Assembly: GCA_022562855.1 (NCBI GenBank)
Contig: JADFON010000172.1
Span: 1 to 5,194, forward strand
Source: Candidatus Zhuqueibacterota bacterium
GTDB taxonomy: Bacteria > SM23-31
Reading direction: 5' to 3'
Length of the DNA: 5,194 nt
Shown here: piece after piece, positions 1 to 5,194 of the stretch
Layout: every line of letters begins with the position of its first letter
How positions within the stretch are numbered: position 1 is the stretch's first letter
Notes under the pieces: model-generated
What the model saw: only the letters and a program-made list of their open reading frames with translations
What the model was told of the DNA's origin: nothing
Databases searched by the model: none
Program-made: the position numbers and the translations under genes

Positions 1-54
1 TACGGAAAACGTCCATCGTTGAAAGAACTGATAAAATGGGTCAGGTATAGTTAA
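1..54 (+). CDS. Possible C-terminal tail of an upstream gene (partial)
   Basis: The window opens inside sequence that could be the end of a gene running in from the left. Frame 1 reads 17 residues, YGKRPSLKELIKWVRYS, to a TAA at 52-54. Frame 3 is also open, reading RKTSIVERTDKMGQV to a TAG at 48-50. I slightly prefer frame 1 because it mixes basic and hydrophobic residues like a helix end, but the stretch is too short to decide or to name a family. The sequence after both stops is AT-rich and looks non-coding, which fits a gene ending here. In related bacteria the gene before such a VWA protein is often another member of the MoxR/DUF58/VWA cluster, but nothing visible here shows that. Confidence 0.25.
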   Translation, partial: YGKRPSLKELIKWVRYS

Positions 55-101
55 AAAATATTGTTCAGGCTAATACCTGCGCACCCAAAAACGCATTTTT
101 T
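38..101 (+). terminator. Weak terminator-like inverted repeat
   Basis: CAGGTAT at 42-48 is the inverse complement of ATACCTG at 73-79. Outside it, GGGT (38-41) can pair with ACCC (83-86) across a three-base bulge. A run of six T lies at 96-101. The position just after the possible upstream stop fits a transcription end. The 24-base loop is long and AT-rich, and the T run is 16 bases away from the main stem, so this is a poor intrinsic terminator and may be chance. Confidence 0.22.
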
Positions 102-215
102 ATCCAATCATCTATCTTCTTTTCTCTTGCCTTTATTTGTCGTAATTACGAAATTAGGTCGCTATAACTGTTTTGAAAACCGGATTAAGGAATAAATTAA
201 TCGAATTAAATACTT

Positions 216-2420
216 ATGCCCAATATTACAGATATATCGCTGGATATTAATGGAAGCGTAGTTTTGTTGATCTTATTGTTTATTGCCGGATTGGCGTCAG
301 TATATTTTATATACCGGAGCACAGTCCCTCCATTACGAATGTGGCGAAGAGTGTTGCTTGCAGTTGTGCGTATTGGTGCGCTTGTATCCATAACAGGAAT
401 GCTTTTTACACCTGTACTAAATGTTTCAATTGAACAAAGCGTAACTCCCCTTTTGAGTATTTTGGTCGACAATTCTGCAAGTATGAATTTTACCGACCGT
501 AATGGAACTGACGAACCGCCGGTTACGAGAAAAAAAATTACTACAGACCTTTTGCAGAGCAGTTTTTTCAATGATATATCGAGAGATTTTGAGCTCCGTT
601 ACTATAAATTTGACAATACCGTTTCGGAATTTTTTCCCGGTGACCGTGACTCACTCAGGTTTGACGGGGAAGGAACAAATATTTCTTCTGCCCTGCAGCA
701 CGTATTTGATGAATCCCGGGATGACCCATTGCGGGGAGTTTTGCTTTTGAGTGACGGGATATCTAATCTTGGCTCCGATCCTGTCAACAGCGTTTCGCGC
801 GCCGGTGTTCCGGTTTATTCTATTGGTATTGGAGAGGCTTTGGTACAGAATGATATATTGATATCTAATCTCCAGGTAAACGAGATTGCCTATACCGGCG
901 AGAATATCCCCATCACCGTTTCAATCCAGGGAAGCGGTTTCGGAGGCAAAACTGCTACGGTCACGCTTACTTCTGACGGAAATCTGCTCGAATCGCGGGT
1001 AATTCAATTGCCGGACAATAACAGAACCCGGTCGACAACTTTGAATTTTTTTCCATCTGAGGCGAAAAATCAAAAATTGAACATTGTTGTATCTTCACAG
1101 GAAAACGAATTGACTTTGGAAAATAACCGGCGTGAATTCTTTATAAAGGTCCTTGAAAGCAAGATAAATATTTTGATAGTTGCGGGACGTCCCAACCAGG
1201 ATTATGCTTTTCTTAAGAGAAGCCTGCAATCTAATGCGAATTATTCCGTTACCGGGATTGTCCAAAAACCTGACGGAACGTTTTACACGAATTCCGGTAA
1301 CACAATTCCAAATCCGCGCGAATTCCAAGTTTTTGTTCTTGTGGATTTCTGGAGTTCCCAACAGGCTGATAACCTTGCCAATTCGATTTTCAATGAAATA
1401 ACGGTCAACAATAAACCTGTAATGTATATCCGGGGTAAATCATTATCTCCCGGTATTATGCAATCATGGGCAGAGGTAGTTTCGATTGCAAATTTCAACA
1501 ACAGGGGCAGAGAAGAGGAAGTTTATATACAGCTAACGAGAAACGCCCTGGATCATCCGGTTTTCAGAATTGACGATGACCCAGTCGTTAATACAGCAAT
1601 CTGGAATAAAATTCCCCCTGTTTTTACATCCTCCTATGTCCCGGTTCCTGCTAATACTTCCGAAATTATGGGGCGGCTTGACATGACACGATCCACAAAC
1701 ACACTTTTTTCAAATACGACACCGCTTTTCTTCCTAAACCGTACCGAAGAAAGAAAATCTTTGTTTATCAATGCATATAATCTGTGGCGATGGAAACTTT
1801 TGGCTCAGCGTGACACCGATATTATCGATTTTTATGACATTTTTATGAATAACTGCATCAGGTGGCTGATCAACAAAGAAGACAGCAAAATATTTCATGT
1901 TGCGGCAAGCAAAGAATTTTACCAAAATGGCGAACGGGTTATAATAAATGCTCAGGTTTACACCGAAAATTACGATCCTGTTGAAGACGCCGAAGTACAG
2001 ATTACCATAGAAAAACAGGATATGACTCTTAACAGGATATTACAATCTATCGGTGACGGGCTTTATACCACGGATATAGAAATTCTTGAACCGGGTGAAT
2101 ACTCTGTTTCTTCGACCGCAAGCAAAGGGGAAAGACAAATCGGTTTGGATAACACCGGATTTATCATTGGTGAATTCAATATAGAAATGCAAAAAACAGT
2201 AATGGACAGTGTCCTGCTTGGCATGATTGCCGCTGCATCGGGGGGCAGGTATTTTTCCTACAAAGGCATTACGAATATACCGGCGCTTCTCGATCCATCC
2301 CGTGCTATTGAATACCGAAATCTTGAATTCGAAATTTGGAACAAATCATGGTTTATGATAGCCATTATTACCCTTTTGTGTCTTGAATGGTTCTTTAGAA
2401 AACGTTTCGGGATGTTGTAA
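216..2420 (+). CDS. VWA-domain membrane protein with glutamine-amidotransferase-like and Ig-like domains
   Basis: Complete 734-residue inner-membrane protein. Two membrane helices come first (about 13-33 and 46-69). A VWA domain follows (about 78-210) with a full metal-ion site: DNSAS at 85-89, T154 in GEGTN, and D180 in LLLSDG. Next are a CARDB/Ig-like domain (about 215-312), a class I glutamine-amidotransferase-like fold (about 315-550, starting INILIVAGRPNQDYAFLKR), a second Ig/MG2-like domain (about 560-645, with GDGLYTTDIEILEPGEYSV), and a last helix (about 711-727) ending in EWFFRKRFGML. The amidotransferase-like part has no cysteine at a nucleophile elbow, so it is probably not catalytic. 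Proteins of this build occur beside MoxR ATPases and DUF58 proteins and are thought to act in envelope assembly or stress; no partner is visible here. The ATG at 216 is needed to keep the first helix. Its upstream is A/T-rich without a properly spaced ribosome site (AAGGA at 187-191 is 24 bases away). The domain calls are strong; the cellular role is unknown. Confidence 0.93.
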   Translation: MPNITDISLDINGSVVLLILLFIAGLASVYFIYRSTVPPLRMWRRVLLAVVRIGALVSITGMLFTPVLNVSIEQSVTPLLSILVDNSASMNFTDRNGTDEPPVTRKKITTDLLQSSFFNDISRDFELRYYKFDNTVSEFFPGDRDSLRFDGEGTNISSALQHVFDESRDDPLRGVLLLSDGISNLGSDPVNSVSRAGVPVYSIGIGEALVQNDILISNLQVNEIAYTGENIPITVSIQGSGFGGKTATVTLTSDGNLLESRVIQLPDNNRTRSTTLNFFPSEAKNQKLNIVVSSQENELTLENNRREFFIKVLESKINILIVAGRPNQDYAFLKRSLQSNANYSVTGIVQKPDGTFYTNSGNTIPNPREFQVFVLVDFWSSQQADNLANSIFNEITVNNKPVMYIRGKSLSPGIMQSWAEVVSIANFNNRGREEEVYIQLTRNALDHPVFRIDDDPVVNTAIWNKIPPVFTSSYVPVPANTSEIMGRLDMTRSTNTLFSNTTPLFFLNRTEERKSLFINAYNLWRWKLLAQRDTDIIDFYDIFMNNCIRWLINKEDSKIFHVAASKEFYQNGERVIINAQVYTENYDPVEDAEVQITIEKQDMTLNRILQSIGDGLYTTDIEILEPGEYSVSSTASKGERQIGLDNTGFIIGEFNIEMQKTVMDSVLLGMIAAASGGRYFSYKGITNIPALLDPSRAIEYRNLEFEIWNKSWFMIAIITLLCLEWFFRKRFGML

Positions 2421-2638
2421 AAAGTAAATTATAACTTATAAGTCGAAAAAATTGCCGTACGCTAATTTCAATTTTTGAGCAAATAACAACTCGATTTTTC
2501 TCTTATTCTCTTTATTCAACAACTAAAATTTTCAAAATCCTTCACAAAATTACCCTTTCCAAATAAAACCCCTTGCTTTTTACAGTAATTATATTAAAAT
2601 ACCAAACTTTATGAATGTTAGTTCCAGTCTATATTGAT
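2421..2638. other. AT-rich intergenic region between the VWA and serine hydrolase genes
   Basis: This gap is dominated by A and T runs and contains no open frame worth calling. Just after the VWA stop is a perfect 10-base palindrome, ACTTATAAGT (2434-2443), followed by five A's. It lacks the G+C stem of an intrinsic terminator, so a transcription stop is not shown. The right end holds a possible promoter for the next gene. The length and composition suggest that the two genes are transcribed separately. Confidence 0.6.
2573..2600 (+). promoter_or_regulatory. Possible sigma-70-type promoter for the serine hydrolase
   Basis: TTGCTT (2573-2578) and TAAAAT (2595-2600) resemble -35 and -10 boxes and are 16 bases apart. 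Transcription would start near 2607, giving a leader of about 30 bases to the ATG at 2639 but only about 8 to the ATG at 2615. The whole stretch is AT-rich, so such matches arise easily by chance. If the host belongs to Bacteroidota, its main sigma factor prefers a different -7 element, which weakens the call. Confidence 0.3.
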
Positions 2639-3808
2639 ATGAGCTTTAAAAAGATAACCGGCATTACCGCGATCATTACCCTGTTTGTTTTTTTTGATCA
2701 ATTCCTGAGTATACCTCCCGACACAGCTATTCTTTATCCCGGAAAATCGGGCAAAGAAGTCACAGCACACATCGAATCTCTGATAAAGTCCTTTTACTCT
2801 GAAGCTAACTCCCAAACGGATGCGCTGCTTACTAAAACATTCCGGAAAAATGCACCGGGCGCTGCGATTGCAGTAATTCAAAGCGGGAAAATATTATTTA
2901 AAAAGGGCTATGGTCTCGCCAACCTGAATACCAGGGAGGCTATTGAAACTAATACGCGCTTCCTGCTTGCTTCGGTATCAAAGCAGTTTACGGCAATGGC
3001 AATCATGATGCTGGAAGAGGAAGGCAGACTGTCGTTTGAGGACTCTATTCCGTTGTATTTTCCTGAAGTACCCTCTTTCTGGAAAAAAATCAAGATAAAG
3101 CACCTGCTGACACATACTTCCGGGATTCCCGACCGGTTCTATCTTATCGGTTATGCCGAAGGTTACTTGAACAAGGATATTCTTGACAGGCTGATTCAGA
3201 CAAGGTATCTTGATTTTAACCCCGGAGCAAGATTCAAGTATAGTAATTCCGGTTACAATTTGCTTGCGATGATAGTTGAAAAGATCTCCGGCAAACCTTT
3301 CCGCACATTTCTAAAAGAGCGGATATTCGATCCTGTAGGCATGATCGATACAATCGTTGACGATGAGACAGAACCGGTCATTGAAAATCGCGCAGTTGGT
3401 TACGCACCTCGTGGAAGAGGCTACAGACCGAATGATTTTTTGTTGTTCACGACCGGGGCAAGCGGGATTTTTTCCAGTGTAGAAGACCTGTTCAAATGGG
3501 ACCAAACCCTTTACACCGAACAACTCGTCAGCGCAAAATCCATAGAGAATGCCTTTACTCCGCATGTGCGCGCCGGACGACGGGAGAATTACGGTTTCGG
3601 CTGGAGAATAACGAATAACGTGGAAGATATAAAGGCTGTTTATCACACGGGAAGTCTTGGCGGCGCTCACACTATCCTGTTTCGCGTACCCGAAAAGAAT
3701 TTTTCTATTATTCTTCTTGCAAATAGAAATGTAAGATCAAGAAAGCAAATAATACGGAAAATCACAGAGATTTATCACCCCGGACTGATAGATATTTTAC
3801 AATTCTAA
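2639..3808 (+). CDS. Exported serine hydrolase of the beta-lactamase / class C penicillin-binding-protein family
   Basis: 389 residues from the ATG at 2639; the frame also opens at an ATG at 2615, eight codons earlier. I prefer 2639 because MSFKKITGITAIITLFVFF is a clean export signal (basic start, hydrophobic core), whereas the longer start adds an acidic residue before the basic cluster. Neither start has a ribosome site. Numbered from 2639, the active-site motifs are S112-V-S-K115 (SxxK nucleophile), Y201-S-N203 (YxN) and H336-T-G338 (the KTG equivalent). Family hallmarks LLTHTSGIPD (about 156-165) and GASGIFSSVEDLFKWDQ (273-289) are also present. The family includes D-alanyl-D-alanine carboxypeptidases, esterases and class C beta-lactamases, and the substrate cannot be read from sequence. 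The protein probably acts in the periplasm or as a lipid-free secreted enzyme, since I see no lipobox cysteine. It ends soon after the catalytic domain with no C-terminal extension. The next gene converges on it 31 bases downstream. Confidence 0.93.
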   Translation: MSFKKITGITAIITLFVFFDQFLSIPPDTAILYPGKSGKEVTAHIESLIKSFYSEANSQTDALLTKTFRKNAPGAAIAVIQSGKILFKKGYGLANLNTREAIETNTRFLLASVSKQFTAMAIMMLEEEGRLSFEDSIPLYFPEVPSFWKKIKIKHLLTHTSGIPDRFYLIGYAEGYLNKDILDRLIQTRYLDFNPGARFKYSNSGYNLLAMIVEKISGKPFRTFLKERIFDPVGMIDTIVDDETEPVIENRAVGYAPRGRGYRPNDFLLFTTGASGIFSSVEDLFKWDQTLYTEQLVSAKSIENAFTPHVRAGRRENYGFGWRITNNVEDIKAVYHTGSLGGAHTILFRVPEKNFSIILLANRNVRSRKQIIRKITEIYHPGLIDILQF

Positions 3809-3839
3809 GTTTTTTTGCTGAGATGGTTTTTTGCGGCAG

Positions 3840-4247
3840 TTACTTGAATCGTTTTCCCGGTCTGTCGAAAAATTCCTGATAAATCGATAATCCTTCAAAT
3901 GTCTTGAGACCTAATTTTCCCCTGATAGTATTTATATCAAGACTCTGTCGAATCAGATTTATCGCAAAGGAGTGTCGGAGGGAAGACGGCGTTAGAAGAC
4001 GCTTTATCGCGGATGTTTTCACGTAGCGCCGGAAAATTTTTTGAATCATAACTGTTGAAATTTGTTCTCCATACCGGTTAAAGAAAAAATACCGCGAATC
4101 AAGCTTTAATTGTTTGACTTTTCGACGGTAAATTCTAAGAGCATTGATCGTTTCAGGCTCAGTAACTCTTGTAAAACGGTTTGCCGATTCTTCTCTGTAG
4201 ATTTTTACGTGTTTTCCGGAAAACCGAAACCGGTCGATTGGCACCAT
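3840..4247 (-). CDS. Truncated tyrosine recombinase (C-terminal catalytic-domain fragment), probably a pseudogene
   Basis: 135 residues matching only the second half of a XerC/XerD-type catalytic domain; full-length members have about 300 residues. TPSSLRHSFAINLIRQ (86-101) carries the second catalytic arginine, R91, and SIYQEF (121-126) carries the presumed tyrosine nucleophile, Y123. Spacing from R91 to the following LGL box and then to Y123 (23 and 9 residues) equals that in XerD, so the alignment is secure. The DNA-binding N-terminal domain and the first catalytic arginine are missing. The beta-hairpin lysine is not evident, the HxxR histidine is S88, and the LGH histidine is L114. Upstream of the ATG the frame stays open only seven codons (stop at 4269-4271), and those codons do not resemble the expected GLRxSE helix. 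The gene is therefore cut at its 5' end, where the base composition changes. The ATG may be fortuitous. An active enzyme is unlikely. It could be a remnant of a mobile element or integron-like gene, or half of an intact gene split by a misassembly. Confidence 0.8.
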   Translation of the reverse strand: MVPIDRFRFSGKHVKIYREESANRFTRVTEPETINALRIYRRKVKQLKLDSRYFFFNRYGEQISTVMIQKIFRRYVKTSAIKRLLTPSSLRHSFAINLIRQSLDINTIRGKLGLKTFEGLSIYQEFFDRPGKRFK

Positions 4248-4281
4248 GCACGAATCAATTCGCGGGGATCATTCGTGCCAA
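4238..4281. repeat. Nested inverted repeat at the composition boundary
   Basis: TTGGCAC (4238-4244) pairs with GTGCCAA (4275-4281), and inside it GCACGAAT (4248-4255) pairs with ATTCGTGC (4271-4278). The two pairings share bases 4275-4278, so they are alternatives. They can also combine into an 11-base stem (TTG plus GCACGAAT) with a seven-base bulge caused by a duplicated GCAC. The loop is 15 bases. The repeat overlaps the first codons of the recombinase fragment and sits where G+C rises. It could be a recombination site, an element end, or a fold-back that misled assembly; function is not shown. Confidence 0.5.
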
Positions 4282-4305
4282 GCATACATGACGTAATAAT
4301 CAGGA

Positions 4306-4620
4306 ATGAAACGCTTATCGGTTGCGGGTCGCCGTCAGCGGTTCATCGTCAAATATTGCACAATCTCGATTCGAATCGTCGAGAATTCGCAGAACGAATT
4401 TGTTCGCGCCGAGTTAGAGGGTTGTTCCAGGGTGCAGCCGAATCGGGTGCGTTTTTTGCGAGCCCCCGGCGGTTGGCTGGCGCTAATGGCGGGTGAGCAC
4501 ACCGTGTACGTGAACTGTCATCTTCCTCGCAAGATCACAACTCTCAAGATTGATGCAGAGCGAGTCTGTGTGTTGAGGCCCTGTTCGAACCAATTCTGGT
4601 TCGCCAGGATACGGAGTTAA
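4306..4620 (+). CDS. Doubtful small open frame, hypothetical protein
   Basis: A 104-residue frame from ATG 4306 to TAA 4618-4620. AGGA lies directly against the start with no spacer, so it is not a functional ribosome site as placed. The product is basic, has no clear signal peptide or membrane helix, and matches no family I recognise. The middle (VRFLRAPGGWLALMAGEHTV) looks mildly protein-like. After the TAA the same frame stays open from a GTG at 4621 for 31 more codons to a TGA at 4714-4716, which could mean an old longer gene interrupted by a stop. Chance is the simpler explanation. Listed because it is the best plus-strand candidate in an otherwise empty stretch. Confidence 0.18.
   Translation: MKRLSVAGRRQRFIVKYCTISIRIVENSQNEFVRAELEGCSRVQPNRVRFLRAPGGWLALMAGEHTVYVNCHLPRKITTLKIDAERVCVLRPCSNQFWFARIRS
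4367..4400. repeat. Two adjacent short palindromes
   Basis: CGATTCGAATCG (4367-4378) is a perfect 12-base palindrome. Six bases further on, AATTCG (4384-4389) and CGAATT (4395-4400) form an inverted repeat with a five-base spacer. Both are built on the same TTCGAA/AATTCG core. They could be protein-binding sites or REP-like elements, but no further copies in ordered array are visible. Confidence 0.4.
4586..4603. repeat. Seven-base-pair hairpin
   Basis: CGAACCA (4586-4592) and TGGTTCG (4597-4603) are perfect inverse complements around a four-base ATTC loop. The hairpin lies inside the last codons of the doubtful frame ending at 4620. No T run follows on the plus strand and no clean one on the minus strand, so it is not an intrinsic terminator. 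It uses the same TTCG/CGAA words as the other palindromes in this region. Confidence 0.45.
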
Positions 4621-5083
4621 GTGCTGACGTATCAGCCGTTCGCAGCGTCGCCAACCGGAGCGGTGGGAGCGGCGGGCGGCATCGAATCAGAAATATTGAT
4701 ATTCGTTGAGTCCTGAACATGAAATGGACGTTCGACCTGCGGCGTCGTCATGCCGGGCGTGGACGGAAACTGATGGAGCCCGGGGGTACATACTTTTCAC
4801 TCTGACCGGACAGCACCGCCGCAGGTGCGGATGTCGACGGGCCTGTCGCGTACCTGTGTTCACGGTGACAAAAAGGGGCTGCTCAAACGGCATTAGCGCG
4901 ACCGGTCCGTCCTGACAGTCGACCGTTCCTGTCTTATTTCCACTCGCCATCTCCGAAATCGATGCAGACAGGAATTCTGATTGAACCGCCAGCCCCACTC
5001 GGCCGTCACCAGAAAACGGACGGAGGCGTTGCGACGGGATCTTGCCACGCAGCCGGGATTATTCGGGCAGGAACCTCGGGTCG

Positions 5084-5194
5084 CTACCCGGCCAGTGCGG
5101 CGCGAACGGCGTCGGTGACCCAGGCTTTTTCGGGGAGTCCCTTGAATCCTTCGGAAGTGAAGTAGACCCGGCAGCGCGGGGTGTAATCGCCGGT
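5084..5194 (-). CDS. C-terminal fragment of an unidentified protein (partial, runs off the right edge)
   Basis: Reading leftwards from the window end, the minus strand is open for 36 codons to a TAG at 5084-5086. The product begins TGDYTPRCRVYFTSEGF and ends VTDAVRAALAG. Third codon positions are G or C in 27 of 36 codons, and the fragment has the balanced residue mix of real protein, so I think it is genuine coding sequence. I do not recognise the family. The gene must start beyond the window. A small hairpin (CGGGT/ACCCG, 5077-5090) overlaps the stop codon but has no T run after it on the minus strand. The codon preference differs sharply from the A/T-ending codons of the genes left of 4250, which suggests a different genomic origin. 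Confidence 0.65.
   Translation of the reverse strand, partial: TGDYTPRCRVYFTSEGFKGLPEKAWVTDAVRAALAG

Follow-up and report, generated by a model that had tools for sequence, protein, structure and literature searches.

Does the abrupt change near the right end of this contig record the entry of foreign DNA through a recombinase gene, or does it mark a place where the DNA of two organisms was joined by mistake? The window analysed here, 5194 bases, is an entire contig (C178) of a draft genome (G000) that consists of 491 contigs and is 79.6% complete and 2.5% contaminated. Both explanations had been offered in the original prediction. Of the two, a chimeric contig, in which DNA from two organisms was wrongly joined, is the one that we favour, with a probability of roughly 0.85. 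Comparable breaks recur near other contig ends, and the entry of foreign DNA through the recombinase gene is not favoured. Genome-wide comparisons were made on sampled contigs, 50 in one set and 110 in another (632 kb, mean G+C 0.422). The features of the window are collected in Table 1; neither tRNAs nor members of known RNA families were found in its 5194 bases.

Table 1. Features of the 5194-base window, with strand and supporting match
Feature	Position	Strand	Match or basis
VWA-like membrane protein, intact, 734 aa	216..2420	+	VWA and YtkA matches weak, slightly below Pfam cut-offs
Serine beta-lactamase/transpeptidase-like protein, intact, 397 aa	2615..3808	+	PF00144, E 4.8e-68
Tyrosine recombinase, C-terminal part, about 135 aa, N-terminal half missing	3840..4247	-	PF00589, E 2.2e-11, profile 50-166/172
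Junction zone	4229..4271	.	Recombinase homology ends at 4229; frame-closing stop (TGA) at 4269-4271
G+C-rich tail, foreign to the genome, 947 bases up to the contig end	4248..5194	.	G+C 0.574; composition outlier
C-terminal 35 codons and stop of a gene running off the contig edge, DF family (seleno)protein-like	5087..5194	-	NF049942, E 0.0016

The abrupt change in composition that had been placed near position 4240 is real: G+C is 0.404 in 1-4247 versus 0.574 in 4248-5194. In a two-segment fit, the best split falls at 4404 (0.406 versus 0.596, log-likelihood gain 48.7), because 4248-4400 is of intermediate G+C. This split is the third strongest among 111 contigs, the window included. The other parts of the original description also bear up. 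Genes do vanish to the right, where the longest stop-free run past 4248 is 123 codons, a length that shuffled sequences equal (p 0.435); the edge fragment, on an exact recount, has 27 G/C-ending codons out of 36 with the stop included; and the recombinase frame is indeed cut at the composition change, with the coding break at about 4229-4247. The contig shows two marks of a chimera, an abrupt boundary between two compositions and a gene, the recombinase, cut at that boundary.

The left part is native to the organism of the draft genome, since its composition fits the genome and the identity of the VWA-like protein to its relatives declines with kinship. Trinucleotide distances there are 0.12-0.18 (genome median 0.175). 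Within the family, nearly full-length relatives of the VWA-like protein reach 56% and 42% identity; at class level the figure is 36%, and beyond that at most 31%. The best relatives of the beta-lactamase-like protein, one of the same class and one of the same family, are 61% and 57% identical, respectively.

The recombinase fragment itself is XerA-like (E 9.4e-16), and position 4229 is where its similarity to intact recombinases of Aliarcobacter and Paenibacillus plasmids starts. A recombinase N-terminus was sought in all frames to the right of the junction, and none matched. In viral contigs, the fragment found no relative. The fragment departs from the catalytic R..HxxR..H..Y pattern of active XerA/XerC/XerD-type recombinases. 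The first R belongs to the missing half and the second R and the Y are present; the two catalytic histidines are absent: the HxLR or HxFR of relatives is SSLR here, and their LGH is LGL. Judging from these residues, the recombinase may be decayed or divergent, and perhaps had decayed before the join. The loss of the histidines and this possible earlier decay leave some room for an island. Integrase pieces near the ends of two other contigs, C60 and C301, were considered as the missing half and rejected; the C60 end does not overlap with this contig and runs off into sequence unrelated to it. A perfect 8-base inverted repeat, GCACGAAT / ATTCGTGC, lies at the junction (4248-4255 and 4271-4278, spacer 15 bases). 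It folds no better than shuffled sequences (z -0.70) and was therefore given no weight.

If the join were instead a real horizontal acquisition, foreign DNA would have entered within or beside the recombinase gene, and the fragment would be what is left of a decayed gene bordering an island. Recombinases are common at island edges, and a truncated recombinase that lacks two residues usual in its family would suit such a remnant. In addition, no close relative of the recombinase was found in 12 related genomes (best 33%), as expected for a mobile gene. However, the 947-base tail has no mobile-element gene, and no direct repeat was found around the junction (4100-4420), although the far end of an island would lie outside the contig. 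We consider such an acquisition unlikely, and a real junction, with a foreign G+C-rich segment of the chromosome lying within a decayed tyrosine recombinase gene, is similarly improbable. The break appears to have fallen in the recombinase gene by chance, and nothing marks the recombinase as the agent.

A single composition step could be an island. What speaks for a chimera over transfer is that the contig stops 947 bases past the break and that similar breaks, some of them clearly inside genes, recur near contig ends. The three strongest steps (C90, C56 and C178) and the step on C120 are all near contig ends; some others are internal, for example that on C137 (L155). First, in C120 (L110), a single plus-strand frame at 4969-6393 encodes 475 residues, with a short-chain dehydrogenase (PF00106, 2-172/195) followed by DprA (PF02481, 2-211/212). 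Its GC3 goes from 0.40-0.50 to 0.70-0.78 where the dehydrogenase gives way to DprA, and the G+C step, at 5474, leaves 921 bases to the contig end. This frame is almost certainly a chimeric join and would probably be annotated as a fusion protein; a fusion of this kind is implausible as an island, which argues against acquisition in C178 as well. Second, at 1-2510 of C90 (L105), G+C is 0.566 across the first 1,659 bases, which hold a heme A synthase gene (CtaA) along with another gene's C-terminus. That C-terminus, as read from the sequence (there was no Pfam match there), is unrelated to the AT-richer membrane protein gene joined to it in frame. The best plasmid-borne relatives of this CtaA, about 40% identical, are from Alphaproteobacteria. 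Third, the final 513 bases of C56 (L098, 8173-8685) have a G+C of 0.604 and a separate open frame, and follow a gene of genome-typical composition. Finally, at the end of C60 (L099, 8011-8531), an integrase N-terminus with a weak Pfam match continues in frame into Calx-beta-like sequence, the latter assignment being read from the sequence and not a Pfam match. With several steps near contig ends, genes fused across them and a draft in so many pieces, chimeric contigs are the simplest explanation.

The composition steps need not all be chimeras; those at AT-rich contig ends and on C117 may or may not be. In C117 (L151), GC3 falls from about 0.7 to 0.3 over the course of an unbroken aldolase gene (53-1114, plus strand). 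This gene is possibly a join of two homologous genes, and we do not regard C117 as proven to be chimeric.

The tail of C178 is not native to the draft genome, since it is a composition outlier and the family that its edge fragment resembles had no match in this genome or the nearest relatives. Against 900-base windows of the 50 sampled contigs (mean G+C 0.423, sd 0.039), the tail has z = 3.8. Its G+C is matched by only 3 of the 5,336 windows of equal length in the 110 contigs, and its trinucleotide distance of 0.439 is equalled in 4 of 1,225 windows; all of these windows are on the suspect contigs C90 and C120. The edge fragment scores 18.4 bits against NF049942 (profile 70-96/96, 35 residues only), under the curated cut-off of 70 because the fragment covers just a third of the protein. 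The DF family was not found in the draft genome or its five nearest relatives, two of the same family and three of the same class. Across a set of 290 genomes, 21 had it. Degenerate patterns made from the edge protein gave no match in 84,980 species genomes at first and later 7 scattered matches, which are probably mostly due to chance. It is very unlikely that the tail is a native but atypical region, that is, DNA of the same genome that is G+C-rich and largely non-coding: no portion of it was confidently placed in another lineage, which is consistent with such a region, but the intergenic DNA of C178 is AT-rich (0.27-0.33 G+C), the edge gene has 75% G/C-ending codons (GC3 0.75) against 38-45% (GC3 0.38-0.45) in the left genes, and among the 110 contigs the tail stands out in composition.

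When the halves were searched separately, the left one led to the host lineage and the right one matched no lineage. The tail is present once in its own genome, the sole match being itself. Nothing convincing matched it in 290 genomes drawn from across the domain, or in plasmids and phages, and three patterns derived from it had no match in viral contigs. Overall, the tail searches gave at most short matches, with a size and rate close to those expected by chance. A planctomycete origin had been suggested by the gene-poor, G+C-rich sequence together with a motif, and was not supported by a DNA search. The 392 genomes searched, from the phylum of a genome rich in family PF07596 (G277), gave only matches of ~30-38 bases, in 4 of 392 genomes versus 2 of 290 unrelated ones, which is a similar rate. 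A 24-base junction pattern allowing up to two mismatches found no match.

The composition step, the truncated gene, the native left part, the atypical tail and the in-gene joins at other contig ends are direct observations; we infer that the join in C178 is artificial, and how it arose. In a chimeric contig, positions 1 to about 4247 would come from the draft genome's own organism and the last 947 bases from another, G+C-richer organism. The join, inside the tyrosine recombinase gene, would have been made in assembly or, if the DNA was amplified, in amplification, and would have no biological function. Such joins could arise in a metagenome-derived genome as well as in an amplified single-cell genome. 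Real repeats and the edges of islands, however, also come to lie at contig ends, and this counts against a chimera. In metagenome-derived genomes, the joining of fragments of different origin by misassembly is a known error, but a survey holds it to be relatively rare next to mis-binning (PMC8201837), which also counts against a chimera.

The C178 junction is most likely not a biological feature, and its meaning is then one of data quality only. Genes at the contig ends of this draft are unsafe as evidence of transfer or gene fusion unless the reads are checked, and the dehydrogenase-DprA frame of C120 is an example of a gene unsafe as evidence of fusion. A real join would be an unremarkable instance of foreign DNA beside a recombinase remnant.

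Two known situations can be compared with this locus. C178 resembles a genomic island with an adjacent tyrosine recombinase in that its recombinase adjoins DNA of foreign composition. However, this recombinase is truncated at the boundary, so that an intact integrase is missing, no attachment-site repeat was found, and the contig, which ends after 947 bases, has no cargo genes. The other comparison is with chimeric contigs produced by misassembly in draft genomes, as treated in the GUNC paper (PMC8201837). The right half of C178 matched no lineage by which the second organism could be named. C178 is like these contigs in its composition step and in its broken gene, it would likewise unite fragments from different sources, and it too comes from a fragmented draft.
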